From Kiritimatiellia bacterium (GTDB lineage Bacteria; Verrucomicrobiota; Kiritimatiellia; RFP12; UBA1067), in the NCBI GenBank assembly GCA_017514235.1, contig JAFWKK010000003.1:55905-119904 (forward strand): a DNA stretch of 64,000 bases, given 5' to 3'. How positions within the stretch are numbered: the first letter of the stretch is position 1; every line of letters begins with the position of its first letter. Under the pieces are notes generated by a model. It saw only the letters and a list, made by a program, of their open reading frames with translations, was not told where the DNA came from and did not search any database. The translations under genes and the position numbers were made by a program. This document shows, one piece after another, positions 24,450-51,197 of this stretch.

Positions 24450-27311
24450 TCACTTTGATGTTTTACTCATCTCACAAAGTATCCCCCGCAACTTCTCGAC
24501 CGTCACTGGCTTGAGAAGGACGCCGTCAAACCCGACAGCCTCGGCCTTCGCAAGCATCTCCACGTCGGCGGTGATGACGTAGACGGGCAGTTTCGCCAGC
24601 GCGGCGTTGGCACGGATTGCGCGCACAAGCCCCTCGCCGTCAAGTTCGGGCATCCACATGTCAGTCAGCACCAGCCCGAACTCCGTTGCGCCGCCGGATT
24701 CCAGCGCCGCCAAGGCTTGCTTGCCGTCGGCGGTCGGCGTGACATCAAGATAGCCCAGTTTCTTGAGCATTGCCTCCAGGACGGTCAGGTTCATCTTCTG
24801 GTCGTCGACGATGAGGATGCGCTTCTTTTCCTGTGCGGCAACCGGCGTCACGTGCTCCTCCGCCTTCGGCGTCGCCGCCGGCACGGCATCGCACACCTTC
24901 ACGTTCGGAACGGCGATCACGAAGGTGGAGCCCTTCCCGAGCGTGGAAGCGATGGACAATTCGCCGCCCATGGCGGCGGCAAGCTGCCTGCAGATGGCGA
25001 GGCCGAGGCCCGTGCCGCCGTGGCGCGCCAGCTTCGCGCCCACCTGGACGTAGGGCGACGCGATGACCTTCAAGTCGTCCTCGCTGATGCCGCAGCCTGT
25101 GTCCTCCACCTCCAGGCGGAGCGTGCCGATGTCCGCGCCGTTGTCCCGGGCGAACGTGGCGCGGACATCCACGAAGCCGGATTCGGTGAACTTCACGGCA
25201 TTCCCCATCAGATTGAAGAGCATCTGGCGGACACGCTGCGGATCCACCATGAGGATGGGCAGTCCGTCGGCGCGGCACCGGAACTCGACGGCGGGGTCCT
25301 TGCTCGCGATGCGGAAGGCCTCGACGAGCTCGCCCATAATCCTGCCGCAGTCCGTCGGTTCCGGCACGATCTCCATGCGCCCGGCCTCCAGCTTCGAGAA
25401 GTCGAGAACGTCGTTGACGAGATGGAGAAGCGTCTTTCCGCTCGCCAGGATGGAGTCGATGGCCTGGTCGCGTTCGGCGTCCGACCTGAACCCCATCTTG
25501 AGCATCTGCGAAAAGCCGATGATAGCGTTGAGCGGAGTGCGGATGTCGTGGCTGACGGTCGAAAAGAAGTAGCTTTTCGACTTGTTGGCGCTTTCCTCCG
25601 CCTCGAGCTTCTGGATGATCAGGTTCTTCTCGCGCGTGCGGAGAATCGAAAAGAGGCTGAGCATGATCCCGAGCGAAGAGACCAGGAGCGCAAGCTCGAC
25701 GACCGACTTGAGCAGCATGTCGGAGTCCAAGTGGGATATCAGCCTGACGAAATCCTCCTTGCCGAGCGTCATTCCCACGAAATCGTCGAAGGCGTTCTCC
25801 GCCGCGTCGCAGACGGCAAGGCGGAACCACATGAGCGACGATAAGAAGATCATCACGAAGATGCTGACCCATACGACCGTGGAGTGCCCGAAGCGCCCGC
25901 TCGAATCCAGTCGGAACACGCGCCTGTAGAGGAGAAAGCCGAGCATGCACCAGATGGAGAGCAGAAGGTACGATTCCGCCGAAAGCGTGCTGCCTGAAAG
26001 ATAGTTCGGGACAAGCATCAGGAGGCTGAACACGACGGCCATGCCGACGCCGGCCAGACCTGCGGATCGCACGAAGAGGCTCTTCTCCCCCTCGCGGCGG
26101 GCGATGGCATACGCGGCGGCGGAGACATAGCCGTAGGCGATGGCTGCGCCGAGGCTGGAGACATCGACGGGCCAGCCCGTGACGGTGCGCCCGAAGAACG
26201 GAATCGCGAACGAGACAAGCATGACGAAGACGATGGCATTCGCAGGCGTGCCATCGCGGTTGAGAACACCGAACCAGCGGGGAAGCATGCCGCCGTGCGA
26301 CATGGCGTGCATGAGGCGGCTTGAGGTGACAAAGGTGGCTAAAAGGCCGGTCAGCTGCGCGGCAAGCATCGTCCCGCCGAGGATCGCCGTGCCGGCTGCG
26401 CCAAGCGTCCGGCGCGCCGCCGCGAACACTGGCAGCGAATCAGACACGTCAAGCTCCGGCAGTGCCGCGATATATTCGGACCACGTGGCAAACCTTTCCG
26501 GGAACGAGAGGACCGGCAAGACCGCAAGGGCGATGTAAGCGAGCGCGGAAAGGACGATCGCCGCGATCATCAGCGAGAGCGTCCGCTTGACGGGGAAACG
26601 GAACTCGGCCGAAGAGTGGACGACCGCCTCGAAGCCGACGAACGCCCACGGTATCATCGCGAGGATGCGCAAGACCTGTATCCCCGGGCTGCCGTTCGAC
26701 GAGAACGCCGGCGCCATCGAGGCGATGCCGCCCTCGTGCCGGAAGAGCGCGGCGAAGAAGCACGTCGCGACGCCCGCCACCATCACGCCGGCGAATAGCG
26801 TATGGAGCCGCACCGCGAGGCGTTTGCCGAAGATAAACAGTCCGCCGCAGAGCGCTATCGCGGCGACGCTCAGCAGGACTTCTCCGAAGTACACGTCAAA
26901 GCCGACCATGCTGTAGTGGAAGCCGAACTGGAGCGCGTCGCCCAGGATGTATCGCGACTCGATCACGAGCGCGGTGGAGTTGGCCCATAGGATTGCCACG
27001 TACGTGAGCAGCAGGAACCAGGCCACAAGGTAGCCGTGGTCCGTGCCGAACGCCTTGGCCACGAACCCGTACGCACCGCCAGGACCCGGCCGGCGGATGA
27101 CAAGCCGGTGGTAGTTCAGCGCGAATACCAACATCGCGGCCATGCCGATCAAGATGCCGATCAGGGTCCCCGCGGGACCGGCCTTCGGGAGGAAAACCGT
27201 TCCGGGCAGGACGAACGCACCCCACCCCACGGCATAGCCAAACGAAAGCGCAATGACCGCGAGGGGCGAGAGATATGCGCCGAGCCCCGTCCTCCCGTCA
27301 TTGTCGATCAT
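24450..27311 (-). CDS. APC-family transporter / histidine kinase / receiver fusion (copy 1)
   Basis: A 953-residue membrane sensor. Residues about 10-470 are an amino-acid-permease-type (APC superfamily) transporter. It opens with GYAVGWGAFVLPGTVFLPKA and contains the RPGPGGAYGFVAKAFG signature. Two more membrane segments (about 485-505 and 545-565) precede a HisKA domain (His about 589, TVSHDIRTPLNAIIGFSQ). The HATPase boxes are NLMGNAVKFTE, DTGCGIS and GTGLGLAI. A receiver follows, with phospho-acceptor Asp about 882 in LVLTDMWMP and Lys in LLKPVT. It begins with GGAGG at a good distance from ATG 27311. The transporter half may import and/or sense a nutrient and set kinase activity, as known for CbrA (which uses an SSS-type transporter instead). 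It has no HPt of its own; an orphan HPt is encoded at 33.6 kb in the same run. Confidence 0.85.
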   Translation of the reverse strand: MIDNDGRTGLGAYLSPLAVIALSFGYAVGWGAFVLPGTVFLPKAGPAGTLIGILIGMAAMLVFALNYHRLVIRRPGPGGAYGFVAKAFGTDHGYLVAWFLLLTYVAILWANSTALVIESRYILGDALQFGFHYSMVGFDVYFGEVLLSVAAIALCGGLFIFGKRLAVRLHTLFAGVMVAGVATCFFAALFRHEGGIASMAPAFSSNGSPGIQVLRILAMIPWAFVGFEAVVHSSAEFRFPVKRTLSLMIAAIVLSALAYIALAVLPVLSFPERFATWSEYIAALPELDVSDSLPVFAAARRTLGAAGTAILGGTMLAAQLTGLLATFVTSSRLMHAMSHGGMLPRWFGVLNRDGTPANAIVFVMLVSFAIPFFGRTVTGWPVDVSSLGAAIAYGYVSAAAYAIARREGEKSLFVRSAGLAGVGMAVVFSLLMLVPNYLSGSTLSAESYLLLSIWCMLGFLLYRRVFRLDSSGRFGHSTVVWVSIFVMIFLSSLMWFRLAVCDAAENAFDDFVGMTLGKEDFVRLISHLDSDMLLKSVVELALLVSSLGIMLSLFSILRTREKNLIIQKLEAEESANKSKSYFFSTVSHDIRTPLNAIIGFSQMLKMGFRSDAERDQAIDSILASGKTLLHLVNDVLDFSKLEAGRMEIVPEPTDCGRIMGELVEAFRIASKDPAVEFRCRADGLPILMVDPQRVRQMLFNLMGNAVKFTESGFVDVRATFARDNGADIGTLRLEVEDTGCGISEDDLKVIASPYVQVGAKLARHGGTGLGLAICRQLAAAMGGELSIASTLGKGSTFVIAVPNVKVCDAVPAATPKAEEHVTPVAAQEKKRILIVDDQKMNLTVLEAMLKKLGYLDVTPTADGKQALAALESGGATEFGLVLTDMWMPELDGEGLVRAIRANAALAKLPVYVITADVEMLAKAEAVGFDGVLLKPVTVEKLRGILCEMSKTSK

Positions 27312-27362
27312 GACGCCTCCGAATTGGCTGCGGGTTTGAAATCAGCATGACTCGCCCTCCTT

Positions 27363-30236
27363 TCACGAACCTCCTGAAAGGACCTTGCCAAGCGCGGCTG
27401 TCGTGACGGGTTTGAGAAGGATGTCGTTGAATCCCATGTCGGCGTACGTCGTCTGAGATTCCACGTCTGCCGTCACGGCTACGACGCGCAGGGATGCAAG
27501 CGCCGGATTGGCGCGGATGGCGCGTATCAACCCCGCACCGTCCATGTTCGGCATCCACATGTCCGTCAGGACGAGGTCGAAGGCCTTTGCGCCCGGCGCT
27601 TCCAGCACGCTGAGCGCCTCCTGCCCGTCCGCCGCCAAGGCAACCTCGAAATCGCCCATGTTCTTCAGAAGCGCCTTGAGAACCATGAGGTTCATCTTCG
27701 AGTCGTCCACAATGAGGATCCTGTGCGGCATCTGCCCGGGAAGAGCGCTCCGCTGCGCGTCCGCCAGGGGAGGGACGTGCTCCTGCGCGTCGGCCGTCGG
27801 CTCCACGATCTTCACATTCGGTATGACAACCGAGAACGTGGAACCCGCGCCGAGGGTGGAAGCCACCTCCAACCTGCCGCCCATGGCCGCCGCGAGCTGC
27901 TTGCAGATGGCGAGGCCAAGCCCCGTGCCGCCGTTGCGGGAAGCCTTAACGCCCACCTGGGAGTAGGCCGAGCCGATGCGCTTCAAGTCTTCCTCGCTGA
28001 TGCCGCAACCCGTATCCTCGACCTCCAGCCGCAGCTCCCCCGCGTCCGCGTCCTTACACCGTTCGAACCTGGCACGGAGCTCCACATGCCCCTTCTCGGT
28101 GAACTTGACGGCGTTGCCGACGAGGTTGAACACGATCTGCCGCAGGCGCTGCGGGTCTAGCATCAGAAGGGGCATCTCCTCGGCGCGGCACCTCAACTCG
28201 AAGCTCAACCTGCCGCTGGAGGCGCGGAACGCCTCCAGCACGGCGCGCATGAGACGGGAACAGTCCGTTGGCTCCGGGAGTATCTCCATCTTGCCGGATT
28301 CCAGCTTCGAGAGGTCCAGCACGTCGTTTACGAGCCCCAGCAGGGTCTTGCCGCTCACGAGGATGGAATTGACCGCCTCCTTGCGCTCGGCCTCGGTCTT
28401 TAAGCCGGCCTCGAGCATCGTCGAGTAGCCGATGATGGCGTTGAGCGGCGTGCGGATGTCATGGCTGACGGTGGAGAAGAAATAGCTCTTGGCCGCGGCC
28501 TTCTCCCGCTCCATGTCGCGTTCACGGCGGCGAAGGATCGCGTATAGGCCGAACATGAGGGCAAGGGCAAGGAGGTTGAGTCCGGTCTGGACGAGATTGC
28601 TGCGGAAGATCGAACGCTCAACGTTGGACAGGTTCTTCCGCAGGATGGCATGCCAGTCGCCCTCCTCCTGCCCGTGACTCGCCTTGCCCGACGCGGCGTC
28701 CGTGCAGGTCTCGGCATGTCGGCCGACGATGGTTTCATACGCCTTTTCCGCCGTCTCGCGGGTCGTCTGGCGTATCCACATCACCGACAGGATCATGATG
28801 ATGACGAACAGGGAAATCCATGCGACGGGCGACCTGCCGAAGCGGCGCATGCTGTCGCGGTGGAAGATGGTGATGAAGATGGCGAGGGCGGCAAGGCACC
28901 AGACGATCAGGACGAGGTAGGACCCGGTGGCGATCATGGTGGCGTCTAACGTCATGAACGGCATGACGAAGAGGAAGATGATCACGATTGAAACCGCAAG
29001 CCCGAGAAGTCCCGTCACCTGCGTACCCCTGTCCCCAGCCTTGCGCGCAGTCTTGAACGCCGCGGACGACGTGTAGGCGTAGGCCACCGCCGCGCCGAGA
29101 ATCGAGATGTCCACGACGACGCCGATGACCGTCCGTCCGAGGGGCACCACGAGGGTGGCCAGCGCCGCGATGGCAATGACGGCGTTGCGCGGGGCGCCGT
29201 CGGCGTTTCTCCCTCCCAGAAACGAGGGCAACGCGCCGTCGTCCGCCATCGCCGCCATCAGGCGGCTCGCCGCGACGGTGTTGCCGACGAGGTTCGTGAA
29301 GATGGCGCCGACCAGCGTCACGCCGATGATGACGCACCCCGCCTGGCCAAAGAACTGGCTGGCTACGTCAAACGCGTGGTAGTCCAGCTCGTTCCCCGAA
29401 TCGGCCAAGTTGGCCACGGCGCCGGTCCAGCCGGAAGCCCCCTCGCCGAGCGTGAGCACTGGGATGAACGTCAGGCACGTGTAGGCGATCACCGCCGTGA
29501 CGAGTGCGGCGAGCATGACCCGGAAGGACTTCCCGACGGGGAAACGGAATTCCGAGGAGGAGTTCGAGATGGCCTCGAAACCGACGAAGAGCCACGGCGC
29601 GATGGCGAGGATGTTCAAGGTCTGGAGAAGTCCGGAACCACGATCGGGGGCGAAAAACGGGCGCATCGACTCCAGCCCCCCGTGGTGGTTGATCGCCGCC
29701 GACGCGAAGCAGGCGAGGATCCCTACGGCCAGGATGACTGCCAGCGCCGACTGGACGACGCCCGACAGACGGCGGCGGCAGCATATTGCGGAAGCGACGA
29801 CGATGGCGGCGATGGAAAGCAGGATGTCGCCAAGGTAGATGCTGCTCTCTTGAATCGTGTAGTGTAACCCGAAGCGGAAGGCGTCGCCCAGAGTGTAGTG
29901 CGCCACGACCACGAGCGCCGTCACGTCCAGCCAGACTATCGCCAAGTAGGCGAATGCGAGGAAGACGCCGCAGAGGAAGCCGTGGTCGTGGCCAAACGCC
30001 TCCGACGCGTATGCGTATGTGCCGCCGGAACCAGGCTGGCGGTTGATCATGTAGTGGAAATTCCATGCGACGAGAGTCATGATCAGCCCGCCGATGAAGA
30101 TGCCGAGCACCGTGCCAAGAGGTCCGGCCTTTGGCAGGAAATCGTTCCAAGGCATGACGAAGGCGTCGGACCCCACTGAGCAGCCGAAGGCGAGCGCCCA
30201 GGCTCCAAGCCTAGAGAGATACCGTGAAGACGCCAT
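27363..30236 (-). CDS. APC-family transporter / histidine kinase / receiver fusion (copy 2)
   Basis: A 957-residue paralogue of the preceding protein with the same architecture. I chose ATG 30236 because AAAGGAG sits five bases upstream; the longer frame overlaps the EvgS-like gene. The transporter half starts FGCSVGSDAFVMPWNDFLPK and has RQPGSGGTYAYASEAFGH. The HisKA His is about residue 592 (TVSHDIRTPLNAIIGYST), the ATPase boxes are NLVGNAVKFTE, DTGCGIS and GTGLGLAICK, and the receiver Asp is about 891 (LVLTDMWMPNMDG). A periplasm-facing or linker stretch of about 70 residues with a Glu/Lys-rich part precedes the last membrane segment, longer than in copy 1. The tandem pair probably senses related but different ligands. 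Confidence 0.85.
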   Translation of the reverse strand: MASSRYLSRLGAWALAFGCSVGSDAFVMPWNDFLPKAGPLGTVLGIFIGGLIMTLVAWNFHYMINRQPGSGGTYAYASEAFGHDHGFLCGVFLAFAYLAIVWLDVTALVVVAHYTLGDAFRFGLHYTIQESSIYLGDILLSIAAIVVASAICCRRRLSGVVQSALAVILAVGILACFASAAINHHGGLESMRPFFAPDRGSGLLQTLNILAIAPWLFVGFEAISNSSSEFRFPVGKSFRVMLAALVTAVIAYTCLTFIPVLTLGEGASGWTGAVANLADSGNELDYHAFDVASQFFGQAGCVIIGVTLVGAIFTNLVGNTVAASRLMAAMADDGALPSFLGGRNADGAPRNAVIAIAALATLVVPLGRTVIGVVVDISILGAAVAYAYTSSAAFKTARKAGDRGTQVTGLLGLAVSIVIIFLFVMPFMTLDATMIATGSYLVLIVWCLAALAIFITIFHRDSMRRFGRSPVAWISLFVIIMILSVMWIRQTTRETAEKAYETIVGRHAETCTDAASGKASHGQEEGDWHAILRKNLSNVERSIFRSNLVQTGLNLLALALMFGLYAILRRRERDMEREKAAAKSYFFSTVSHDIRTPLNAIIGYSTMLEAGLKTEAERKEAVNSILVSGKTLLGLVNDVLDLSKLESGKMEILPEPTDCSRLMRAVLEAFRASSGRLSFELRCRAEEMPLLMLDPQRLRQIVFNLVGNAVKFTEKGHVELRARFERCKDADAGELRLEVEDTGCGISEEDLKRIGSAYSQVGVKASRNGGTGLGLAICKQLAAAMGGRLEVASTLGAGSTFSVVIPNVKIVEPTADAQEHVPPLADAQRSALPGQMPHRILIVDDSKMNLMVLKALLKNMGDFEVALAADGQEALSVLEAPGAKAFDLVLTDMWMPNMDGAGLIRAIRANPALASLRVVAVTADVESQTTYADMGFNDILLKPVTTAALGKVLSGGS

Positions 30237-30253
30237 CTGCTCCTTTCGCCACA

Positions 30254-33200
30254 TCATGTGTCCGCAATGTCCCCGAATAGCGCGTGGAGCTTGTCCGACG
30301 TGACGGGCTTCGCCATGACCTTTGCGAAGAGGCTCATGTCGTAGGCGGAGCCCACGTCCACGTCGGCCGTGACGGCGACGATCGGAATCTCCGCGAGCCT
30401 GCGGTCCCTGCGCATGGCCTCCGCGAGCTGCGTGCCGTCCATCTTCGGCATCCACATGTCGGTGAGTACGAGGTCGGGCACCCACTCCTTCATCACCTCG
30501 AGTGCCTCCTCGCCGTTCTCGGCGTAGCGGATGTCACCGATACCGAGGTTCTTGAGGTGAATGCCGAGGATCTTGCGGTTCATCATCATGTCGTCAACCA
30601 CCATCACCCGTTCCGGCATCGCGGCGCGGATCGTCTCCTCGGCGGCGCGCGGCGCGGCGGGCATGTGGTCGATCACCGTGAGGCCGGGAATCTCGATGTG
30701 GAACGACGTGCCAGAGCCGAGCGTGCTCGCGGCCTTGACCGTGCCGTTGGCGCTGTCGACCATGCGCTTGACGATCGGGAGGCCGAGGCCGGTGCCCTTG
30801 AGTTCGCCGTTGTTGCTTCTCATGCGGCTCGCGATGTCCTGTACGAACGGGTCGAAGAGCTTCGACATCTTCTCATTGGAGATGCCGCAGCCGGTGTCCG
30901 TCACGTCCAGCGCGAGCGTGCGCATTGCGGCCGTCCACGTCATCTTCACCGCAATCTCGCCCTGCTCGGTGAACTTCGCCGCGTTGCCCACGAGGTTGAT
31001 GAGGATCTGCCGCATCCCCTGCTGGGACAGTTCCACCACGGGGATTGGCAAGTCGCCGGCCGTCTCGATGACCAGCCTCACGCCGTGCCGGCGCACGCGG
31101 TAGCCGAAGATCGCCGGCAGCTCGCGGAGGAGCTGGGTCACGTCGCACGCGCCGGATCGCATGTTCATCGCCCCCGTCTCGAGCTTGGAGAGGTCGAGGA
31201 TGTCGTTGATCAGTTCAAGGAGCGCGGTCGCGCTCAGCAAGATCCCGTCGGTGTACTCCTTGCGCTTCGCCTCGTCAAGGCCCTCGCGCGAGAGGAACTC
31301 CGCGAAGCCGATCACGGCGTTGAGCGGCGTGCGCAACTCGTGCGACATCATAGCGAGAAAGCGCGTCTTCGCCTGCGCGTGGCTCTCCGCGGCGGCGGCG
31401 GCCTCGTTCGCACGGCGCGCTTGGCGCCTCAGGAGCACCATCATCACCGCCCCGTAGATCGCCGCAATGGCTAGGACGGCGATTACCGTCACGATGATCA
31501 GCCGCGAGAGCTCCTTGCTCGTGAGGCCGAACACCCGGTGGACCATGGTGCGCTCGGCGGCGGCGGCCATGAACATCTCCTGCAGTTGGAGCGGGTCTAT
31601 CGAGTTGACGGCCTTGCGGAGCACCGCCACCTCCTCCTCCGGCACGGAGCGGCTCGCCCACAGCTCGAACCCCTCGCTGCGCTCCTTCGAGCCGATCATC
31701 TTCGCGTAGATCTCGGGCACGGGGAAGGAGAACACCGACACCGCGCCGAACTCTGCGGGGTCGATTTTCTCGGGATAGGGGATCCAGAAGTCCGTGTCGC
31801 CGCGCAGGAACTTCGCCTCGGCGGTCTGTATGCCGGTCTGCGGGTGCGTGTCGAACTTAAGGCCGGTCTTCGCCTCCAGCTCCCCGAGGAACGCCTTGGC
31901 GAAGTGCGTGAGGTTCCCCCTGGAGTCCTTGAGCGACACGGGCCACGGCGAGAAGTCGATCATCACCGGGCGCGGATCCTTAAGGCGCTCGCGCAGCCAG
32001 TTCGCCTCCTTCAGCGAGAGCAGGGACATCTCGGTGCGCAGGCCGTAGTGGCGCTCGGAGATCATCTTCATGTACTTCGGGAAATCGTCGCACACCTCGT
32101 CGAGCGCCCGTTCCAGCTCGTGAAAGAGCCGGGAGCTCTTCGGCGAGGCGCAGAGGTACATCGGGTGCGAGGCGTAGATGTGGAGCGCCCGCTCGTTGTC
32201 GAGCTCGGGCATCTCGACGTCGACGAGCGCGTCCACCTCTCCCGAGAAGTAGGCGTTCAGAAGCGCCATGTCGGTCGCGTACTCGCGGCAGACAATGCCG
32301 AGCGAGTCGGTCTCGAGCTGCCGCTTGATCCGCTGCGTGCTGAGGGCTCCGGCCAGCACGCCCGCCTTCATGCCTTTCCAGCTGGCGGGGTCGCCGGCCT
32401 GGAATCGGTTGCCGTGGCGTGTCCAGAGGAACACCCGGAGCATCCCGATGGGGGTGTGCGGGTAGAAGAACCTGTCGCGCCGGTCGGCCGTGAAGCCAAT
32501 CCCGCCCACGAGGTCGAGCCGGCCTGACGTCACGTCGTTCAGGCTCTCATCGTACCCGCCGTAGACGTAGTCAAACGTCCAGTGGGTGAGCGGGCCGATC
32601 GCATTGAGCCAATCTTCGATCGCGCCCGAACGCTCGCCGTCCGGCGTGACGTTGAAGAGCCTGCCCCGGCAGTACGCCGCCACGCGCACGCGGTTGGACG
32701 GAGTCTGCACGCCCAGGAACTCCTCGCGCAGCCTGTCGTACTTGGAGATGTTGGTTATGTAGCATTCGCGGTACGCGGATATGAGCCTCTTCATGAGGTC
32801 GGGGCGATCCTTCCGCACGGCGAAATAGACGTTGCGCGAGCCGATGGGCACCACCTCCACGAGGCCGTCGGGGCGCTTCCCCTGCGGCGTGTAGAGGAAA
32901 AGCAGGTCGATCTCGCCGTCGCGCAAGGCCTGTACCGCGCCCTCGCTCGTCCTGTACTCCACGTATTCGGGGGAGAGCGTCGCGTGCTCGAAGTAGCGCT
33001 CCCGGTCTCTGTTCGGTCCCTGCGAGACGGGCGAGTACCCCACGCGCATCTGGGGCCAGTCGGTGATCTTGGTGGCCAGCATTTTCGACGCGCGCGCTGG
33101 CATCGCGTAGAGCGCGAAGTGCATCCGCCCGAGCGGCTGCAGCGGGAAGTCGTAGTCCTTCTTGAGGCGTTCCGTGCGGAACGCGGAACACACGACCACG

Positions 33201-33457
33201 GCGTTCGAGGCGTCGCTCATTCCGTCCGCGCGGTATTGTACGCGCGTCGGCTCGACTCCCGCCGCCGCGAACACGTCCTCCATCACGGCACGCGCGAACT
33301 TCACGTCCGCCGCCGCCCATTCGTCCAGCGAAGGGTCGCGCGCGCAGTCCACCACGTCGACGCTTTCGGCAGACGTCGAAGCCGAAAGCAGAAAGCAGAA
33401 TGTAAAATGCAGGATCGCGGCGGCCGGGGATGCCATGGTCGTCTTGGAGTCGTTCAT
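30254..33457 (-). CDS. EvgS/BvgS-like hybrid histidine kinase with periplasmic solute-binding domains
   Basis: A 1067-residue hybrid kinase. After a signal/anchor (residues about 8-30) come roughly three venus-flytrap-like modules. The first (about 35-250) recalls phosphonate/ABC-type binders (EGAVQALRDGEIDLLFLY). The second (about 255-485) is SBP_bac_3-like (LVGGIGFTADRRDRFFYPHT). The third covers about 495-640. One membrane helix (about 648-672) leads to HisKA (His about 705, MMSHELRTPLNAVIGFAEF), HATPase (NLVGNAAKFTE, DTGCGIS, GTGLGLPIVK) and a receiver (Asp about 999, LVLTDMWMPKMDG; Lys in VMAKPVT). There is no HPt domain, unlike EvgS and BvgS; the separate HPt gene two frames upstream probably fills the role. 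The stop lies 17 bp before the next kinase start. Confidence 0.85.
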   Translation of the reverse strand: MNDSKTTMASPAAAILHFTFCFLLSASTSAESVDVVDCARDPSLDEWAAADVKFARAVMEDVFAAAGVEPTRVQYRADGMSDASNAVVVCSAFRTERLKKDYDFPLQPLGRMHFALYAMPARASKMLATKITDWPQMRVGYSPVSQGPNRDRERYFEHATLSPEYVEYRTSEGAVQALRDGEIDLLFLYTPQGKRPDGLVEVVPIGSRNVYFAVRKDRPDLMKRLISAYRECYITNISKYDRLREEFLGVQTPSNRVRVAAYCRGRLFNVTPDGERSGAIEDWLNAIGPLTHWTFDYVYGGYDESLNDVTSGRLDLVGGIGFTADRRDRFFYPHTPIGMLRVFLWTRHGNRFQAGDPASWKGMKAGVLAGALSTQRIKRQLETDSLGIVCREYATDMALLNAYFSGEVDALVDVEMPELDNERALHIYASHPMYLCASPKSSRLFHELERALDEVCDDFPKYMKMISERHYGLRTEMSLLSLKEANWLRERLKDPRPVMIDFSPWPVSLKDSRGNLTHFAKAFLGELEAKTGLKFDTHPQTGIQTAEAKFLRGDTDFWIPYPEKIDPAEFGAVSVFSFPVPEIYAKMIGSKERSEGFELWASRSVPEEEVAVLRKAVNSIDPLQLQEMFMAAAAERTMVHRVFGLTSKELSRLIIVTVIAVLAIAAIYGAVMMVLLRRQARRANEAAAAAESHAQAKTRFLAMMSHELRTPLNAVIGFAEFLSREGLDEAKRKEYTDGILLSATALLELINDILDLSKLETGAMNMRSGACDVTQLLRELPAIFGYRVRRHGVRLVIETAGDLPIPVVELSQQGMRQILINLVGNAAKFTEQGEIAVKMTWTAAMRTLALDVTDTGCGISNEKMSKLFDPFVQDIASRMRSNNGELKGTGLGLPIVKRMVDSANGTVKAASTLGSGTSFHIEIPGLTVIDHMPAAPRAAEETIRAAMPERVMVVDDMMMNRKILGIHLKNLGIGDIRYAENGEEALEVMKEWVPDLVLTDMWMPKMDGTQLAEAMRRDRRLAEIPIVAVTADVDVGSAYDMSLFAKVMAKPVTSDKLHALFGDIADT

Positions 33458-34421: not shown

Positions 34422-34455
34422 TTTGCTTTTCTCCATGTTGTAGTTGCTTGTAGGA

Positions 34456-37447: not shown

Positions 37448-37448
37448 G

Positions 37449-43124: not shown

Positions 43125-43859
43125 TTACTTCTTGTCGGGCCAGTAGGTCCTGAGCACGTCCTCCGCGACGATTTTCGCGCCAGAGAAGGACAGGTGGATG
43201 CCGTCCGTGTCGCGCACCGTGACCGCCGAGCCCGTCTTGGAGAAGATGGTCTGCGTGTAGCGTCCCGGCCGGATCGTGAGCACCTTGCCCATGTCGTACC
43301 TGTGGAACCGGTCGCGGTACTTCTCGTCGCCCGCAATCTCGGCGACGATGCCGGCGACGAGCTGCGCGTGCTGCTCGTTGCCGTCGGACTTCATCGGCGG
43401 CGTAAGCATCCACACGGCGTGGGTTACGCCGTTCGTGTAGAGGGCGTCGAGAAGCTCCTCGATGCGGCACTTGTACTCGACGCGCCACGTGTCCGTCCCC
43501 ACCATGGCCATGCTGCCCGTACGGCTCTCGAGGGTTTGCCTGTCGTTCGTACCCAACGCAATGAAGGCGGTCTTCGGCTTCACCCGCTCGCAGAGCTCCT
43601 TGGCCTTCTCCGGCCAGTTGAAGACCGACGGCCGGGCAAGTCCGGAACCGAGCGACGAGAATGACTCGGCCGGGGTCACTTCCTTCGCCTTGAAGGCCTT
43701 CTCCATGCCCTTGCCGAGCATCTTCATCATAGAGTCGCCAATGAAGATGACGGGCGTGTCGAGCTTGACCGGCTCCCCGATCTTCGGAGCGTCCGGCTCC
43801 GCGCCAGTCGCCGTAATCGCCGCCATCAGGACTGCCACAGTCATGAGTTTGCTTGTCAT
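43125..43859 (-). CDS. Exported SGNH-hydrolase-family protein (acetyltransferase/esterase)
   Basis: A 244-residue protein; ATG 43859 follows AGGAAGG and gives a signal peptide (TSKLMTVAVLMAAITATGA). The SGNH blocks are intact: Ser in IFIGDSMMKML (about 42), GxND in IALGTNDRQ (about 105), and DxxH in DTDGIHLS (about 221). It looks like the DUF459/AlgJ-type enzymes that complete O-acetylation of exported polysaccharide together with an MBOAT protein. The MBOAT gene lies two genes upstream. It could alternatively be a deacetylating esterase. Confidence 0.8.
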   Translation of the reverse strand: MTSKLMTVAVLMAAITATGAEPDAPKIGEPVKLDTPVIFIGDSMMKMLGKGMEKAFKAKEVTPAESFSSLGSGLARPSVFNWPEKAKELCERVKPKTAFIALGTNDRQTLESRTGSMAMVGTDTWRVEYKCRIEELLDALYTNGVTHAVWMLTPPMKSDGNEQHAQLVAGIVAEIAGDEKYRDRFHRYDMGKVLTIRPGRYTQTIFSKTGSAVTVRDTDGIHLSFSGAKIVAEDVLRTYWPDKK

Positions 43860-43893
43860 TTTACCTTCCTTGTTTTTCATTGGATGTTATTTG

Positions 43894-44133
43894 CTATTGC
43901 GGGTTATCTTCCTGGTCGAGCCACCGCCCGCGAACGCGCGCGGTTCCCCGGCGGAGAAAATCCAGTCGGAACATCGCCGAGAGACGTGCAACCGGACGCA
44001 CGAGCGCCTTCGCCGCGTCGCGGGCAACGCCGTAGTCCATGTTCTCGGCGTTCTTCTCCATCGCCGGCGCATTCATGAGCGCCACAAGCGCGTAGAACAC
44101 GGCAAGGCCGGCCGCCGCCGCCCGCCAAGTCAC
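43894..44133 (-). CDS. Small single-pass membrane protein of the acyltransferase module
   Basis: A 79-codon frame starting at GTG 44133 with AAGGAAG upstream; other in-frame starts (GTG near 44163) are possible. It has one N-terminal hydrophobic helix (AAAAGLAVFYALVALM) and a basic tail ending RGRWLDQEDNPQ. It lies exactly between the MBOAT and SGNH genes. Small membrane subunits linking these two enzymes occur in several O-acetylation systems, which is the likely role. No homology was recognised. Confidence 0.55.
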   Translation of the reverse strand: MTWRAAAAGLAVFYALVALMNAPAMEKNAENMDYGVARDAAKALVRPVARLSAMFRLDFLRRGTARVRGRWLDQEDNPQ

Positions 44134-44170
44134 GTTTCTTCCTTCAGAGTCCTTAATAGCCACGCCTCCT

Positions 44171-45655
44171 TCAGAACTGGAAATAGATGAACGGAGCCAC
44201 GCCTTCGGGGGCGAGTCCAAGGATGACGGTAAACACGACCGCCGCCAGGCCGCCCTGCACCCACACGGGCCACCTGCGCAAGCGATCGGTGAGCCAGGCG
44301 AGCCGCGCTCCGTCGCAGAGCTGCAGGGCGAAGCCCGCCGCCAGCATCGCCGCGCCAGCCGTCACCGGCAGCGTGGACTCCACGCCTACTGCCTTGAACG
44401 CATTGAGGACCCCCTTGAAGGTCTCCATGCCGCCTGCGGAGCCCGCCCTGAAGAGAATCCACAGGAAGGCGACCACGTGGAACACGAATATCCGCGCAAG
44501 CCACTTCGGCGGGCGGAAGGAAACGAGGCGGCCGAGCATGCGCTCCACCGCCAGCAGCGCACCATGCATGATCCCCCACAGCGCGAACGCCCAGCCCGCC
44601 CCGTGCCAGAGCCCGCCCAGGAACATGGTGAGCATGAGGTTCGCGTAGGTTCTCGCCTTCCCCTTGCGCGAGCCGCCCAGGGGGATGTAGAGGTAGTCGC
44701 GGAGCCACGACGAGAGCGAGATGTGCCAGCGGCGCCAGAACGTCTTGAAGCTGTCGGAGAAATAGGGCGCGTCGAAATTGATCGGGAACTCGAAGCCCAG
44801 CAGCAGCGCACAGCCGATCGCGATGTCAGAGTAGGCAGAGAAGTCGCAGTAGATCTGCAAGGTGTAGGCGTACACGCCCATGAGTGCGTCGATGGTGCCG
44901 AATTCTTCCGGCATGGCGAAGAGCGGATCCGCGAGGTTCGCGGCGAGGTAGTCCGCGATGACCATCTTCTTGACGAGCCCCGCGAGGATGAGCACGCCTG
45001 CGCGCGAGGCATCCAGCCTCGTCTCCGTCCCCGGCAGGTTCTCCATCGCCGGGATGAGGTGGCCCGCCCGGACGATCGGCCCGGCCACGAGCTGCGGGAA
45101 GAAGGCAAGGTAGTTCGCGAAGTCGATCCAGCGCCTCGCGGGCCTTACCTCGCCGCGCGCCACGTCAATCACGTAGCTCAGCGCCTGGAAGGTGTAGAAG
45201 GATATGCCAACGGGGAGGACGATCTTGTCCAGAAATGGCTGCGCCGACTCCAGGAAGGCGATCCACTCATCGCCTCGGCCAAGCCAGCCGGCCACCTTCA
45301 CCCCCAGCGGGGCGACAGCCCCGTTGAAGAGGAATCCCGTGTACTTGAAGAACACGAGCACGCCGATGTTGAACGCGACCGCCAGCGCCACCGGCAGTCT
45401 GCCCGCCTGCCTCCCTCGCCCGGCCATCCACAGGGCGAAGCCATGGTTGATGACGGAAGACGCGAGCAGCATCAGCGCAAACGGCCAGCTCCACCAGCCG
45501 TAGAACACTAGACTCGCGGCGAGCAGCACCAGCTTCCTCAGCGAGACGAACCCCCTTTCGCAGCCTGCATACCGCTCCGCCAGCGCCGCCAGGCCCCAGT
45601 TGAGGCCGAAGACGACCGCGAAGAACACGGCAAACGTCAAGGTCGGAAACAGCAT
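44171..45655 (-). CDS. MBOAT-family O-acyltransferase (AlgI-like)
   Basis: A 494-residue polytopic membrane protein. ATG 45655 overlaps the preceding stop (TGATG); the longer frame is a shadow. AlgI/DltB motifs are clear: FPQLVAGPIVRAGHLIP, then TFWRRWHISLSSWLRDYLYIPLGG, then GLWHGAGWAFALWG with the catalytic His at about 348. It moves an acyl group, usually acetyl, across the inner membrane for transfer to a polysaccharide. With the neighbouring small membrane protein and SGNH protein it forms an O-acetylation module for the polymer made by the GT2. Confidence 0.9.
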   Translation of the reverse strand: MLFPTLTFAVFFAVVFGLNWGLAALAERYAGCERGFVSLRKLVLLAASLVFYGWWSWPFALMLLASSVINHGFALWMAGRGRQAGRLPVALAVAFNIGVLVFFKYTGFLFNGAVAPLGVKVAGWLGRGDEWIAFLESAQPFLDKIVLPVGISFYTFQALSYVIDVARGEVRPARRWIDFANYLAFFPQLVAGPIVRAGHLIPAMENLPGTETRLDASRAGVLILAGLVKKMVIADYLAANLADPLFAMPEEFGTIDALMGVYAYTLQIYCDFSAYSDIAIGCALLLGFEFPINFDAPYFSDSFKTFWRRWHISLSSWLRDYLYIPLGGSRKGKARTYANLMLTMFLGGLWHGAGWAFALWGIMHGALLAVERMLGRLVSFRPPKWLARIFVFHVVAFLWILFRAGSAGGMETFKGVLNAFKAVGVESTLPVTAGAAMLAAGFALQLCDGARLAWLTDRLRRWPVWVQGGLAAVVFTVILGLAPEGVAPFIYFQF

Positions 45656-48600
45656 CAGTCTTCCCGCCCCCTTGGCATGACCACTAGCATCGGCTCCGTC
45701 CCAGTGCCGGCGGAGGAGGCCTTCCACTTCTCGAATTTCTCCACCCGAGTCTCCCAGGTCGCCTGGCCCGTCTGCAGGTAGAGACTGCCGCGCTGGAGCT
45801 CGTGCAGCACCAACTTGGCGCCGGCCTGCGCGGCCTCCGCGAGCGGCTTGTCGCTCTGGATCAGGACGACGTTCGCGAACAGGGCCTCGAGCTCCTCCTC
45901 CATCTTCGCGCGCCACTCCGCCCCGGGGAGACGCCTCACCCGCAGGCACAGGCCGTCAAAGCCGGACTTCTTCATGTAGGCGATGACGTCCGCAGGTTCG
46001 GGGTCGTTGTAGTAGCCGAGGTCCACGACCGGCATGAGCCGCAGACGATGGTAGCGCGCGAAGACGCGCAGACCGTCTAGCGAGCGAGCGTCTGGAGAAG
46101 AGAGAGACCGGTCTACCGCCTGCTGGCCGACGATCGGCGCAATCATGCCCACGTCGTCCACTCGCGCACGCAGGGCCTCGAGAACGTCGCGCGTCGGCGC
46201 AGGCTCGGAGGTGCCCGCCTCCATGACGGTCGGCAGCAGGTCCATGACGACGATTGTCGGGCACATCGGGCCGGACGACAACACCTTGAGGCGCGTCTGA
46301 GCCATGCCCGTCTCGGATGCGGAGGCCGCCACCCCCCACCAGCCATAGCCGAGCGCGCGTGGAATCTCGAGAGGCGTGGAGAACGCATGCCTGCCGTTGA
46401 AGTAGCCGATCGCGCCGTCGCCGCGGATCTCCAGCCGGAGCGTGAGGTCGTCTTTCGGACGGACCCACAGGACGCTGTCCAGCACCCGTGGCTCGCCGTT
46501 CTGCCATGCCTGAATGCGCAGGAATCCGTCACTGTCGAACCCGAAGCGCACCATGCCCTGCGTCGAACGCCGCGCATAGAGCCAGAACGCGCCGAGCGAC
46601 TCGCCAATCCTCGCCTCCACGAACCCGTCGCGGATGAGGTCGCTGCGCTTGAGCCTCAGGTTGGTCTCGGATGGGTCGGGCAGGCCCGGCAGCAGGTATT
46701 CGCCGCCGTTCATCACCCCGTTGTTGCCGAAAATCTCCCAGTTGTCGGAGAGACCGGACTCCGAAAAATTCTCGATGACGGGCTGTTCGAGCGGCATCAG
46801 CGTCATGTAGTTGCGCTTCACCAGGCCGTTCTTGGAATCCCTCGCCACACGCCGCAGGAAGTCGAACGCCGCGCTCGACTCCGGAAACGTTAAGAGCCCG
46901 GAGTCCTCGATCTTGCGGCGGAACCACATCAGGTTCTGGCTGTTGGGCGCGACCATGCCGATGATGTGCCGCAGGTTGTCGTAGCGCTCGGGCGCCTCGT
47001 TGAGATAGTTTTGCAGCGCCACCCTGATGTCGATGTTGTCGGGCTGGCGTCCGACCCAGTCCTTGAGAATCGCGCGCGCGTCCGCGCGCATCCCCCTGTG
47101 GTCGAGCCAACGCGCCTGCGCGAGGGCTATCTCGCGGTTGAGGGGGAAGGCCTTCGCGTACCTGTCCAGCATCTCGCGCGCCTCGTCCTCGGCCTTGCCG
47201 GTCGTCATCAGGTAGTCGGCGAAGGCCGTCACCACGCTAATTCGCCCGGGGTCAAGTTCGAGGGCCTTCCGGTAGGCCGCAGCCGCATCGTCGCCACGCG
47301 TCTCGCGGACGTTCAGCCGCGCCTTGTATTCCCATGCGTCCGCGCTCGTCGGCATCGCCTCCGTCCAGCGCTTGGCGACGGCGTCAGCCTCAAGGAAACG
47401 GCGTTCGGACAGAAGCCGCTCGGCCCGGACGACGAAGTCCGGATCGCCAGGCTGCGATTCCTGCGGATTCGCGTCGATCTTCGCGAGCTGGTAGTAGTTG
47501 ACGGCGTCATCCTTATCGTTCGGCACCACCGACAGGAGCCCGTGCATGCGCTTCCTGAGGACGGGCGTGACCACCGAGCCGTCCGCAGCTACCACAATCA
47601 CGCCCGGCAGCGTGCCAAGAAAGCCCGCCGCCATGCTCCCCGCCACGAACGACGCCGGGAACCTGACCGCTACCGGCATGTTGGTACACCCCGTATCCTT
47701 GCGGAACGACGCGATCCAGCTGCGCATCAGCGGCAGGCTCGTCTCCTTCAGCTCGCTCGCGTCTACGTAGAGCCCCGCGAAACCGCCGTCCTTGAATGCC
47801 TCCGCCGACGTCTCCCGCGGGATGTTGTCGAACGGGTTGTTCCCGGAGAGCTTCAGCCGCGGCCATACGCCGCAGAACGCCCTGGCCGCCTCGATCTTGA
47901 TGACGTCGAGATCCTCCACGAGCTGGAAGCCGGCCATGCCGTCGCTCGCCGAAAACCACGGCGGCGCGATTCCGTCGTACCTGAAGGCCTGCCGTTCAAG
48001 CTCCGCGAAGACGTCCGTCTTGTCGCGTATCGACTCCGCGTCCCAAAACGCAAAACGCGGCAGCGGCGCCCTGAGACGCGCGGACATGATCTCCACTTCC
48101 GCCACGCCGGGATAGCCGCTCCATACGCCCGCGCCGACGAATCCGGGCCTGGGCCGAGGGTTCCCAAGGCTCACGCCCCCGCCGAAGATCACCCGCCCGT
48201 CCAGCATCGTGAAAAGCGCGCCGCTGCGCGCGACGAGAACGAGCGAATGCTCGCGGCCCGTACCGATGGGGGAATCCAGGAATTCAACGGCCAGCCTTTC
48301 GCCGGACGTGCGCTCCGGCTGGTTGCGCGTCAGGATGATCGAGCTGTCGTTTCCGAACGTGAGCATCACCGTGTCATCTTCGGCCACGTAGTTCAGGAAC
48401 ACGGTGAAGCCGCCTCCATCCATGCGGAACTTGATTTCAAACGAGCCTTCCGTAAAGGCGTTGGAGCCCATCACCAGCGCCCTCGAGCCGGTGGTGGAGC
48501 CTTTGTCGGAGACGACCGGGTCGTCCGGAGCCTTTGCCCGCAGGTAGACGGAGGGGCTGTCGGCGGCTGGTATGCACTCGCCCCAGATCGCGCGCCACCT

Positions 48601-49659
48601 TTCCTTTTCCACGCCGCCCGCCTCCGGCGAGTCATTCCAGCCGCCTGGTATCGCGCGCGGCCACACGCCGTCAAGGATGCGCACCAGCTCGTCGGCGCTC
48701 CACGCGGGATCCACCTTGAGCCGCGCGAGGCGGCGCGGGTCGGAGTGGGCGTCGTTGTAGCCGAAGCCGTCGATAATGAACCCCATTTCGTAGAAGTCCT
48801 CCACCGCCTTGAGGTTGACTTCCCGCAGTGGCTTGTTGTGCGCCTCGAACTGTCCGTAGTTCCCCATGGGGAAGAAGAACGCCCGCGCCGCGCATCCGAG
48901 CGTGTTCGTGAAAAACGAGGCCGCCGCGACATGGTCGGCGCGGATGCGCCTGTCGAACTCCTCCAAGGTTTCAAATCGCGAAAGGTCCGACAGCCACGCT
49001 GGCGCGGAAAAGAACATCGCCGTTCGCCCGTCCGCGCCCGCAGTGACCTCCCCCGCGCCGTGATCGGACTCCGCCGCCAGGTCCCATGTGGGGCTTGATT
49101 TCATGCGCTTCAGGTACGGCGCGAGGATGACCCCTTCCACCTCCTTGCGCACGTCGTCCGTCACCACCCCCATGACGGCATGCCAGTGCCGCTTCTCCAG
49201 CAGGCCGCCGGTTGTGAAGTACGAGCTTCGCCGCGAGTTCTCGAACGTGATCAGCAGCGACTTGGCGGGGAGGAGGCGCCCCTCCTTGTAGAACCTCGCC
49301 ACGTCGTCGAGCGTGATCGGGGTGTACCCCGCCGCCTTCAGCGCGTCCAGCTGCAAATCGAACTCCGCCGTCGAGACGAAGTCCCCGCCGACTTCCGGAT
49401 TTGTCGTGACGCCGCCGTAGGCGATGGCCACGAACGAATCGCTCTCGCGCTTTACCATGTCCAGCGCCGCCTGATGCAGGCGCTCGCGCCGCTTCCAGTA
49501 GATGCCGTTTAACACGCCCCATGTCGCCACCCCCAGGCATACGAGGCCGAACAACACGAGCCAGGCGGTGCGGTTCTGGTCCTTGCGCATCGCTTGCGGA
49601 CGCGTCCATCCGCTGCCCGCCATCCTGGCGGAGCTGGATATGTCCGGATTCGCGCTCAT
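45655..49659 (-). CDS. Membrane-anchored degenerate CE4 / beta-sandwich / TPR protein (PgaB-like scaffold)
   Basis: A 1334-residue protein. ATG 49659 overlaps the GT2 stop as ATGA; the much longer upstream frame is a shadow. A membrane helix (about 25-43, WLVLFGLVCLGVATWGVLNG) anchors it. Residues about 60-310 align by eye with PgaB-type deacetylase (LQLDALKAAGYTPITLDDVA, AKSLLITFENSRRSSYFT, FFFPMGNYGQ). The catalytic TFDDG is TFENS, so activity is doubtful. Next come a beta-sandwich (about 340-500), a barrel-like part (about 510-680), TPRs (about 690-830), a second sandwich (about 920-1080) and a C-terminal alpha/beta region (about 1095-1330). It probably guides the polymer from synthase to exporter. 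Confidence 0.7.
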   Translation of the reverse strand: MSANPDISSSARMAGSGWTRPQAMRKDQNRTAWLVLFGLVCLGVATWGVLNGIYWKRRERLHQAALDMVKRESDSFVAIAYGGVTTNPEVGGDFVSTAEFDLQLDALKAAGYTPITLDDVARFYKEGRLLPAKSLLITFENSRRSSYFTTGGLLEKRHWHAVMGVVTDDVRKEVEGVILAPYLKRMKSSPTWDLAAESDHGAGEVTAGADGRTAMFFSAPAWLSDLSRFETLEEFDRRIRADHVAAASFFTNTLGCAARAFFFPMGNYGQFEAHNKPLREVNLKAVEDFYEMGFIIDGFGYNDAHSDPRRLARLKVDPAWSADELVRILDGVWPRAIPGGWNDSPEAGGVEKERWRAIWGECIPAADSPSVYLRAKAPDDPVVSDKGSTTGSRALVMGSNAFTEGSFEIKFRMDGGGFTVFLNYVAEDDTVMLTFGNDSSIILTRNQPERTSGERLAVEFLDSPIGTGREHSLVLVARSGALFTMLDGRVIFGGGVSLGNPRPRPGFVGAGVWSGYPGVAEVEIMSARLRAPLPRFAFWDAESIRDKTDVFAELERQAFRYDGIAPPWFSASDGMAGFQLVEDLDVIKIEAARAFCGVWPRLKLSGNNPFDNIPRETSAEAFKDGGFAGLYVDASELKETSLPLMRSWIASFRKDTGCTNMPVAVRFPASFVAGSMAAGFLGTLPGVIVVAADGSVVTPVLRKRMHGLLSVVPNDKDDAVNYYQLAKIDANPQESQPGDPDFVVRAERLLSERRFLEADAVAKRWTEAMPTSADAWEYKARLNVRETRGDDAAAAYRKALELDPGRISVVTAFADYLMTTGKAEDEAREMLDRYAKAFPLNREIALAQARWLDHRGMRADARAILKDWVGRQPDNIDIRVALQNYLNEAPERYDNLRHIIGMVAPNSQNLMWFRRKIEDSGLLTFPESSAAFDFLRRVARDSKNGLVKRNYMTLMPLEQPVIENFSESGLSDNWEIFGNNGVMNGGEYLLPGLPDPSETNLRLKRSDLIRDGFVEARIGESLGAFWLYARRSTQGMVRFGFDSDGFLRIQAWQNGEPRVLDSVLWVRPKDDLTLRLEIRGDGAIGYFNGRHAFSTPLEIPRALGYGWWGVAASASETGMAQTRLKVLSSGPMCPTIVVMDLLPTVMEAGTSEPAPTRDVLEALRARVDDVGMIAPIVGQQAVDRSLSSPDARSLDGLRVFARYHRLRLMPVVDLGYYNDPEPADVIAYMKKSGFDGLCLRVRRLPGAEWRAKMEEELEALFANVVLIQSDKPLAEAAQAGAKLVLHELQRGSLYLQTGQATWETRVEKFEKWKASSAGTGTEPMLVVMPRGRED

Positions 49660-51197
49660 CCTCTCGTACCCCATTTCTTGCCGTCCAGCGTCAGGAAGCC
49701 CCAGTAGGTCTGCCAGCCGAAAAAGAAGATGTAGGAAAGCGTGAACAGGATCCCGGCATACCACCACCTGCGGCCGCTCGTGATCCAGAAGTGGAGGCAC
49801 CACACCAGCGTGATCGTGAACACGCCGATCACATACGACGGATGCAGCATCCGCTCCTGCAGGGGCGCGATGAGAAGCGCCTGCACCATAACGACGGGCT
49901 CGACGATCGGCATCCACATCATGGCGTACCACGAAAGTGCGGGAACGGGGTGCTTGCGCCACATGAACTTGCCCGTCTTCCAGATTTCGCGCAGGTAGGA
50001 CCTCACCCACCGCGCCTGCTGGCGCGCGTACTGCTTCCACCCCTCGGGGCAGATCGTCGTCGCGAGCGCCTGGTCGTCGTAGAGGATCTTGTAGTCCCTC
50101 AGGATGAGGTTCGTGAGCGAACGGTCGTCGGCGTAGTTCCCGTGCTCGCCCCACACGGTCGCGTTGATCCAGTCGTCCATCACGGCGAGAACGCACGTCC
50201 GCCTGTACGCCGAAAAGCATCCGGGCAGGCAGCTCACGGTGCCGAATACGCTTTCGGCCGCCTTCATGATCTTGTACGAGAAGTAATACCTCACGTCCTG
50301 CATCCGAGTGAGCATGTTGACGTTCGCGTTCTCGATGTCGCAGTGGCCGGAGATGCCGCCCACCGTCGGGTCCACGAAGCCCTGCATCAGCTTGTGGAGC
50401 GAACCCGGGAAGACGAAGGTGTCCGAATCCACGCACACCATGAACTCGCCGCGCGCGAGGAACGTCGCCACCCCCCAGCCGTGGCAGAGGCCGCGGTTCT
50501 TCTCGAAATTCACCAGCACGAGCCCCGGATGGTTCGTCTGCGCCTCCTGGATGTGGACGAGCGAATCGTCCGATGAGCCGTCGTTGACGCACACGACCTC
50601 AAGCTTGTCCAGGGGATAGCCTGAGGAGAAAATGCGCTCCAGGGTCTTGCGGATCGCCAGGCCCTCGTTGAAACACGGCACCAGCACCGTCAGCGTCGGC
50701 TCGAAATCGGCTTCGGCCGGCGCCTTGTAGAAGGCGGCGAAGATGAAGCGCGTGATCACGAAGGCGCCGGCGATGATGGAGTAGATCGACACGAGCGGCT
50801 GGTAAAAGTAGTTCTCGATGCTGTTCAGCTGCACCGTCACCGCCCACGCCAGCATGCCCACCGCGCCGACCGCCACGATGATGCCAAATATGAAATGCGG
50901 GGGATGGTAGATCGCCTTCAGACGCGCCTTCACCTCTTCCGGCGAAGGCGGCTCCATCGACGGGGCGACCGTGCGTTCCAGCGTGCTCTGCACCATCGCC
51001 TGACGGCAGTAGGGACAGATCGTCGGTGGAGCCGTCCCTAGGGTCTGGACGTCAATCAAACAGTGCGGACACCGGCTGGATCGCACCTCCACCGAATTTC
51101 GGCGGCGGCTCCCGGAGACGGCAGGGCGGGGACTGGAACGCGTAAAGAAACTGCGCGTTCCCCCTACCCCTGCCTTAGATGTCATGTCGGTCGTCAT
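49656..51197 (-). CDS. Processive family 2 glycosyltransferase with N-terminal zinc ribbon
   Basis: A 513-residue membrane GT2. Unusually, residues about 43-65 carry CPHC and CPYC, 20 residues apart, a zinc-ribbon pattern. Two membrane helices (about 103-125 and 137-157) precede the GT-A domain: VPCFNEG, VVCVNDGSSDD (about 202), MVCVDSDT (about 255), ADDRSLTN (about 355) and QQARWVRS (about 394). These are the D, DxD, catalytic D and Q/RxxRW motifs of PgaC/hyaluronan/chitin-type synthases. Three C-terminal membrane segments follow. It should polymerise an N-acetylhexosamine polymer through the inner membrane. It is the first gene of the exopolysaccharide run. Confidence 0.88.
   Translation of the reverse strand: MTTDMTSKAGVGGTRSFFTRSSPRPAVSGSRRRNSVEVRSSRCPHCLIDVQTLGTAPPTICPYCRQAMVQSTLERTVAPSMEPPSPEEVKARLKAIYHPPHFIFGIIVAVGAVGMLAWAVTVQLNSIENYFYQPLVSIYSIIAGAFVITRFIFAAFYKAPAEADFEPTLTVLVPCFNEGLAIRKTLERIFSSGYPLDKLEVVCVNDGSSDDSLVHIQEAQTNHPGLVLVNFEKNRGLCHGWGVATFLARGEFMVCVDSDTFVFPGSLHKLMQGFVDPTVGGISGHCDIENANVNMLTRMQDVRYYFSYKIMKAAESVFGTVSCLPGCFSAYRRTCVLAVMDDWINATVWGEHGNYADDRSLTNLILRDYKILYDDQALATTICPEGWKQYARQQARWVRSYLREIWKTGKFMWRKHPVPALSWYAMMWMPIVEPVVMVQALLIAPLQERMLHPSYVIGVFTITLVWCLHFWITSGRRWWYAGILFTLSYIFFFGWQTYWGFLTLDGKKWGTRG

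Follow-up and report, generated by a model that had tools for sequence, protein, structure and literature searches.

A polysaccharide synthase locus of Kiritimatiellia and its candidate REC/KaiC/AAA_22 control cassette

How might a polysaccharide machine be switched when the signalling genes around it encode a phosphorelay without a DNA-binding output? The best-known Gram-negative synthase-dependent polysaccharide machines are switched by cyclic di-GMP (c-di-GMP). The locus considered here lies in a 64,000-nucleotide stretch (the window; contig JAFWKK010000003.1, positions 55,905 to 119,904) of the draft genome, 92% complete, of a Kiritimatiellia bacterium (GCA_017514235.1). Sixteen consecutive minus-strand open reading frames (ORFs) without internal stops occupy positions 24450-51197, from a family 2 glycosyltransferase (GT2) to a hybrid histidine kinase. 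Three layers can be told apart in this run: a polymer machine; a cassette encoding a receiver (REC, fused to PAS in the window), a KaiC-like protein, an AAA_22 ATPase and a protein with one transmembrane (TM) segment; and a movable input block of HPt and kinase genes that follows the EIIA gene of a phosphotransferase system (PTS). The reading we favour, with about an even chance of being right, is that of a synthase-dependent exopolysaccharide (EPS) machine controlled by the cassette, with kinase, HPt and EIIA input specific to one clade. If true, the cassette would offer a further means of switching a polymer synthase, in many genomes of the class, and a small gene set for testing such switching.

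Linkage of the cassette to the synthase

Does the cassette belong with the synthase? Among 346 genomes of the class (Kiritimatiellae), with orthologue cut-offs of our own choice, the GT2 occurs in 68 and AAA_22 in 75; 63 genomes carry both, 5 the GT2 alone, 12 AAA_22 alone and 266 neither. AAA_22 is present in 63 of the 68 genomes with the GT2 versus 12 of the 278 without it (Fisher p ~2e-50, uncorrected for shared ancestry). GT2 matches below 400 bits were dropped from this count; 10 genomes had such matches only, none of them with AAA_22, and retaining them gives AAA_22 in 63 of 78 GT2 genomes. The two genes share a contig at 45 of 76 GT2 loci, 34 times divergently, 8 times on the same strand and 3 times convergently. 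The divergent pairs are mostly close (25 at 1.1-1.9 kb, 8 at 4.3-11.1 kb and a single one at 217 kb), and the same-strand pairs are separated by 12-15 kb. The layout of the window is thus the rarer one. What is linked across the class is the polymer machine and the cassette; EIIA, HPt and the kinases are a clade-level, movable input. Could these be EPS genes and passenger signalling genes that merely share a long run? Dense packing is common and the kinase block is variable, as such a reading would have it, but the AAA_22-GT2 linkage extends across the class and across different layouts, and we consider the idea very improbable.

The receiver is similarly constant. In 39 of 42 loci KaiC has a receiver domain encoded upstream of it on its own strand (the window is excluded from these, as it is from the 36 loci scored for the one-TM protein below). 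L076 and L085 are without a REC, and in L092 the sequence breaks off at the edge, with a REC closing the adjoining L091. All 39 receiver sequences have the Asp, T/S and Lys residues, with the phospho-acceptor Asp and the Lys visible in each. The window and the relatives nearest to it have a longer receiver ORF than 20 other loci, where it is short (126-215 amino acids). An initial annotation of the run had the relay act directly on the polymer machine. Because a receiver without a DNA-binding domain is kept beside the machine, this is the most economical reading, and the output would be the machine and not transcription.

The AAA_22 protein scores 121.3 bits against TIGR03015, the XrtA-associated ATPase family (cut-off 324.5), and its alignment retains Walker-type motifs. 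It is followed in 32 of 36 loci by an ORF ending in [Y/L/F/A]xW[E/D/R/Q], a pattern selected after the sequences had been inspected and present at the end of 42 of 6696 ORFs overall, the 32 included. One strongly hydrophobic stretch with at least 3 basic residues in the next 15 marks 31 of these 32 ORFs; that of L099 shows none. Four loci lack the tail ORF at this place: in L023 and L087 the contig ends, in L086 an ORF of this kind is found elsewhere, and L079 is without one. Basic residues flank TM segments on the cytoplasmic side (the positive-inside rule), and since they come after the segment here, the tail is suggested to be cytoplasmic, where its YxW[E/R] end could serve for docking.

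The best PDB matches of the KaiC-like protein are to KaiC, with only one KaiC domain matched. In genera g1, g29 and g32 its Walker A motif reads GAS(G/N)EGRE in all 11 genomes examined (the window, G004, G046, G051, G056, G266, G267, G268, G270, G273 and G281). The Walker A lysine is retained in 30 of 34 other loci, rows repeating the same contigs, as judged by their length, being omitted, and absent in L038, L063, L064 and L086. The three genera are those in which EIIA was seen, so that loss of the P-loop lysine coincides with the presence of EIIA at the locus. The C-terminal part of the protein (gene 37449-38429 and relatives) is variable and Pro/Ala-rich, and an FS-containing motif recurs near its end in many loci.

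Do these proteins gate synthesis, or do they place the machine? GspA/GspB in type II secretion and BcsQ in cellulose synthesis are assembly or positioning devices, and KaiC, AAA_22 and the one-TM protein might analogously assemble or position an envelope complex, the receiver setting when or where, with synthesis itself not gated. The relationship of AAA_22 to TIGR03015, its Walker-type motifs and the one-TM gene adjoining the ATPase gene would all suit such a device. However, AAA_22 has no peptidoglycan-binding domain in Pfam, and the basic residues after the TM segment suggest a cytoplasmic tail, unlike the topology of GspB. We hold the device to be rather unlikely.

Gene run and polymer machine

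The features of the locus are as follows.

49656..51197, minus strand: GT2 synthase, PgaC/NodC/hyaluronan-synthase-like, with an N-terminal CxxC...CxxC (Pfam GT2/chitin-synthase-like, NCBIfam, PDB, alignment)
45655..49659, minus strand: scaffold, 1334 amino acids, with an N-terminal hydrophobic segment, a PgaB-type deacetylase-like domain and a TPR region
44171..45655, minus strand: MBOAT O-acyltransferase (Pfam)
43894..44163, minus strand: smTM2, small protein with a hydrophobic segment, GTG start assumed
43125..43880, minus strand: SGNH/DUF459 protein (Pfam)
39312..43109, minus strand: TPR exporter with a weak deacetylase-like middle region and a sub-threshold C-terminal outer membrane protein (OMP) barrel match (Pfam)
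38430..39272, minus strand: REC-PAS protein, REC residues intact, no DNA-binding domain in Pfam
37449..38429, minus strand: KaiC-like protein, degenerate Walker A, GASGEGRE (Pfam, alignment)
36620..37447, minus strand: AAA_22 ATPase related to TIGR03015 (Pfam, NCBIfam)
36267..36614, minus strand: one-TM protein, 115 amino acids, C-terminal YVWR (no Pfam match)
34456..36270, minus strand: secreted glycosidase-like (TIM-barrel-like) protein, LDYxR motif, alignment similar to Cwp19
33924..34436, minus strand: PTS EIIA type 2, EIIA_2 (Pfam, alignment)
33589..33897, minus strand: HPt protein (Pfam)
30254..33457, minus strand: hybrid histidine kinase (HisKA/HATPase/REC), SBP_bac_3-like region below cut-off (Pfam)
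27363..30257, minus strand: amino-acid-permease-fused hybrid histidine kinase, permease N-terminus nearly complete (Pfam)
24450..27311, minus strand: a second such permease-fused hybrid kinase, permease N-terminus nearly complete (Pfam)
51650..51679, minus strand: promoter-like site ahead of the GT2 gene, about 450 nt upstream (consensus match only)
51877-51952: tRNA-Lys, upstream of the GT2 gene

Spacing within the run is -4 to 51 nt, except for 131 nt between the HPt and first kinase genes. ATGA overlaps join the GT2 and scaffold genes (49659/49656) and recur at 36270/36267 and 30257/30254; the scaffold/MBOAT junction is TGATG at 45655, and the REC-PAS and KaiC genes abut (38430/38429). The start codons of smTM2 and EIIA are assumed. 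The ORF coordinates agree with the initial annotation, which had described sixteen tightly packed minus-strand genes with ATGA, TGATG and abutting junctions, and Pfam agrees with its domain content: a synthase/scaffold/exporter set, O-acylation, ATPases, EIIA, HPt, REC-PAS and three hybrid kinases. The one-TM protein and the secreted glycosidase-like protein had gone undescribed. One transcript across the sixteen genes is plausible from this packing. Of the internal signals that the annotation named as able to split the run, no minus-strand promoter-like site was found within it by the promoter scan, a weak method; three terminator-like sites on that strand, each inside a gene, came from a scan that is also weak. 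Total terminator-like sites fell below shuffled expectation (7 versus 12.6 and 5 versus 9.9 in these weak scans). An RNA switch upstream of the GT2 gene was also considered and set aside: the tRNA-Lys is the only Rfam match there, and the upstream DNA shows little conservation (mean column identity 50% over the window and four relatives).

The GT2 scores 143 bits against NodC and 118.7 bits against PgaC in NCBIfam, both far below curated cut-offs (422.3 bits for the PgaC equivalog), and its nearest solved structures in a PDB search are hyaluronan synthases. QQxRW and WGTRG are invariant in 8 of 8 aligned sequences, QxxRW being a mark of processive glycosyltransferases. It would synthesise and extrude the chain.

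The N-terminal domain of the scaffold matches PgaB structures (3vus, E 3.7e-24). Its catalytic residues do not follow: the TFDDG of PgaB becomes TFEN, TFEQ or TFSQ in 7 of 7 sequences, and the three aligned PgaB histidines are all replaced, again in 7 of 7. Those that matter for N-deacetylation are the WHNV His and the metal histidines. For Bordetella PgaB, H49A and D114A are given as inactive deacetylase variants in the available text of PMC5933820. A deacetylase-like fold without PgaB catalytic residues might guide the chain, and MBOAT together with SGNH/DUF459 suggests that the polymer is O-acylated.

TPRs are clear in the exporter by Pfam. Scaffold residues 222-327 find a weak counterpart in the exporter's middle region (47-51 bits in two loci), and the deacetylase-like part has TFD in place of TFDDG in 7 of 8 sequences. 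Of the parts that define a synthase-dependent system, the GT2 and TPR proteins are present at this locus, the exporter barrel being sub-threshold. With its probable barrel, the TPR protein would export the polymer. The secreted protein (34456-36270) had no Pfam match as a single sequence; its alignment matches Cwp19 (E 2.9e-11), and this glycosidase-like protein may trim the polymer.

The HPt, kinase and EIIA input

Is the whole run conserved? Nine loci have EIIA after the secreted-protein gene and extend past it (the window, L019, L022, L092, L094, L096, L098, L099 and L101), with G051 and G267 omitted from the tally because their contigs stop before the region. An HPt gene lies near EIIA in 7 of the 9, co-directional in three (the window, L022, L101) and on the opposite strand in four (L019, L092, L096, L099); in L094 and L098 it was not seen. 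Permease-fused kinases are present in six of the nine and the SBP-type kinase in three. Neither HPt nor permease kinase was found in L094 (with L095, about 21 kb past EIIA) or in L098, whose contig ends 5.2 kb past EIIA. This variation rules out the sixteen-gene run, first read as one operon, as a conserved unit. In L019 and L092 the block is inverted yet still runs HPt, SBP kinase, permease kinase, permease kinase, and so behaves as an independent unit. Absence of the kinases in relatives, which the initial annotation had named as counting against its reading, is thereby observed in part. What upholds the annotation is the receiver kept beside KaiC.

Other kinases occur further afield. In family f4 a histidine-kinase-like ORF sits between exporter and REC in four of six fetched genomes (L051, L054, L057, L059); none was seen there in L052 or L038. 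The f6 locus L024 has a permease-fused kinase some 5 kb upstream of REC-KaiC. Recruitment of kinases to the locus may thus have happened on more than one occasion, while many distant loci among those examined have no kinase.

Phospho-site motifs are intact in the hybrid kinase, the HPt (conserved in alignment) and the receiver, as in a multistep phosphorelay. The HPt at 33589..33897 is the sole one detected in the genome, and the two permease-fused kinases detected are both in this locus. On the PTS side, the His of the [P/L]HG motif of EIIA is conserved in 9 of 9 aligned sequences, and the genome encodes HPr with an EI-type protein close by on contig C28, assigned by its PEP-utilizers_C domain and this proximity; the active-site His, HPr and an EI-type protein together fit a PTS-linked locus. 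In this clade the hybrid kinases would pass phosphoryl groups to the single HPt and on to the receiver, and EIIA may contribute carbon or energy status. The nutrient-sensing character first given to the relay is a reading of domain names.

Does the relay instead end in transcription? The kinases and HPt could act on distant DNA-binding regulators, their proximity to polymer genes being incidental. The flipping of the HPt/kinase block, or its not being seen, in relatives agrees with this; REC-PAS could be a phosphate sink, and further hybrid kinases, for instance the one matched on contig C28, could share the lone HPt. On the other hand, KaiC has a receiver gene as its neighbour in 39 of 42 loci, this locus holds both of the permease kinases detected, and f4 genomes carry a kinase-like ORF between exporter and REC in four of six cases. 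No DNA-binding domain was found in the phosphorelay genes, in agreement with the initial annotation. An ordinary transcriptional relay is, in our estimate, distinctly unlikely.

c-di-GMP, known systems and the proposed switch

Is c-di-GMP missing from the picture? Neither GGDEF nor PilZ was detected in the genome of the window, other types of c-di-GMP receptor not having been searched; PilZ was sought in this genome alone and GGDEF class-wide. Near relatives have GGDEF in 4 of 117 cases, and the better genomes among them in 0 of 33. The absence of a receptor noted earlier therefore stands for these domains, and is a weaker clue than it seemed, since the genome itself and nearly all near relatives are without detected GGDEF. 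Across the class GGDEF occurs in 170 of 346 genomes. It was not detected in 37 of the 68 with the GT2, so that the polymer machine, as far as draft genomes go, occurs in genomes without detected GGDEF yet is not confined to them. A tie between the machine and c-di-GMP loss is ruled out by the frequencies of GGDEF, 31 of 68 GT2 genomes versus 139 of 278 others (p 0.59), which show no association either way.

The locus resembles PgaABCD, the poly-N-acetylglucosamine (PNAG) system, in its PgaC/NodC-type GT2, PgaB-type deacetylase fold, TPR exporter and glycosidase-like protein. It differs in scoring far below the Pga equivalog cut-offs, in a scaffold domain without PgaB catalytic residues, and in having MBOAT/SGNH and the ATPase cassette but no PgaD match among the 16 genes by Pfam. 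The PgaC-PgaD interaction is described as c-di-GMP dependent in the available part of PMC5933820. With XrtA/PEP-CTERM EPS loci, near whose EPS genes kinase and regulator genes are described (PMC1569441, available part), it shares an AAA_22 related to TIGR03015 and TPR proteins that weakly match PrsT. No exosortase was found among the 16 genes by Pfam, the rest of the genome not having been searched, and PrsR of those loci is a sigma-54-interacting regulator, whereas REC-PAS has no DNA-binding domain. Like KaiC clock proteins, the KaiC-like protein belongs to the RecA/KaiC family, but it has a single matched KaiC domain, has lost the Walker A lysine in this clade, and Pfam finds neither KaiA nor KaiB among the 16 genes. 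The transporter domain of CbrA is of the SLC5 type. The kinases of the window differ in carrying an amino-acid-permease domain and a C-terminal REC, and are like CbrA-type sensor kinases, as far as the available text of PMC11109136 describes them, in the fusion of a transporter domain to a histidine kinase.

How would the cassette act? The KaiC/AAA_22 pair would sense phosphorylation of the receiver while held near the synthase, at the inner membrane, by the one-TM protein. A more specific proposal, possible though on the whole doubtful, is a c-di-GMP-independent switch of Kiritimatiellae in which a phospho-receiver drives a membrane-tethered KaiC/AAA_22, anchored by the one-TM YxW[E/R] peptide, and so gates synthesis or export directly; in one clade the KaiC P-loop lysine would have been lost and EIIA joined, carbon-status input replacing part of the ATPase input.

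Several points weigh against control of the machine by the cassette. The GT2 and the cassette are far apart in G232, and the REC profile was trained partly on the loci used to test it. With the Walker A lysine lost, KaiC may not be an ATPase in this clade. The deacetylase-like region of the exporter is not significant against solved structures (best PgaB, E 0.16), and its C-terminal OMP barrel match in Pfam is below cut-off. The HPt gene is reversed in four of the nine EIIA loci and not seen in two. As GGDEF is unassociated with the machine, c-di-GMP control is possible in other members. Finally, interaction, phosphotransfer and the polymer itself are all deduced from gene content.

No description of the REC/KaiC/AAA_22/one-TM cassette was found in the open-access literature searched. 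The available part of PMC7112194 mentions neither Verrucomicrobia, Kiritimatiellae, Lentisphaerae nor KaiC. The Pontiella sulfated-polymer cluster has GT2/GT4, sulfotransferase and transaminase genes; in the available part of its description (PMC7356697) no match with this locus was seen and KaiC is not mentioned. A scan of named genomes for the exporter with two peptide patterns, which is not exhaustive, gave 31 loci, 30 of them labelled Kiritimatiellae, Lentisphaerae, Verrucomicrobia/Verrucomicrobiota or uncultured bacterium. The remaining one, L070 (CAMBQN010000003.1), carries this locus type on a contig labelled Akkermansia muciniphila, a label that may be wrong.

Elsewhere in the window, Rfam matches a group II intron (44.7 bits) at 9126-9214 on the minus strand, where the ORF 6525-9239 begins. 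A pair of calcineurin-like phosphoesterases, much alike in size, is encoded at 4957-6513 and 15383-16969, both on the minus strand, and an Eco57I-type DNA methylase match lies at 61864-63441 on the plus strand.

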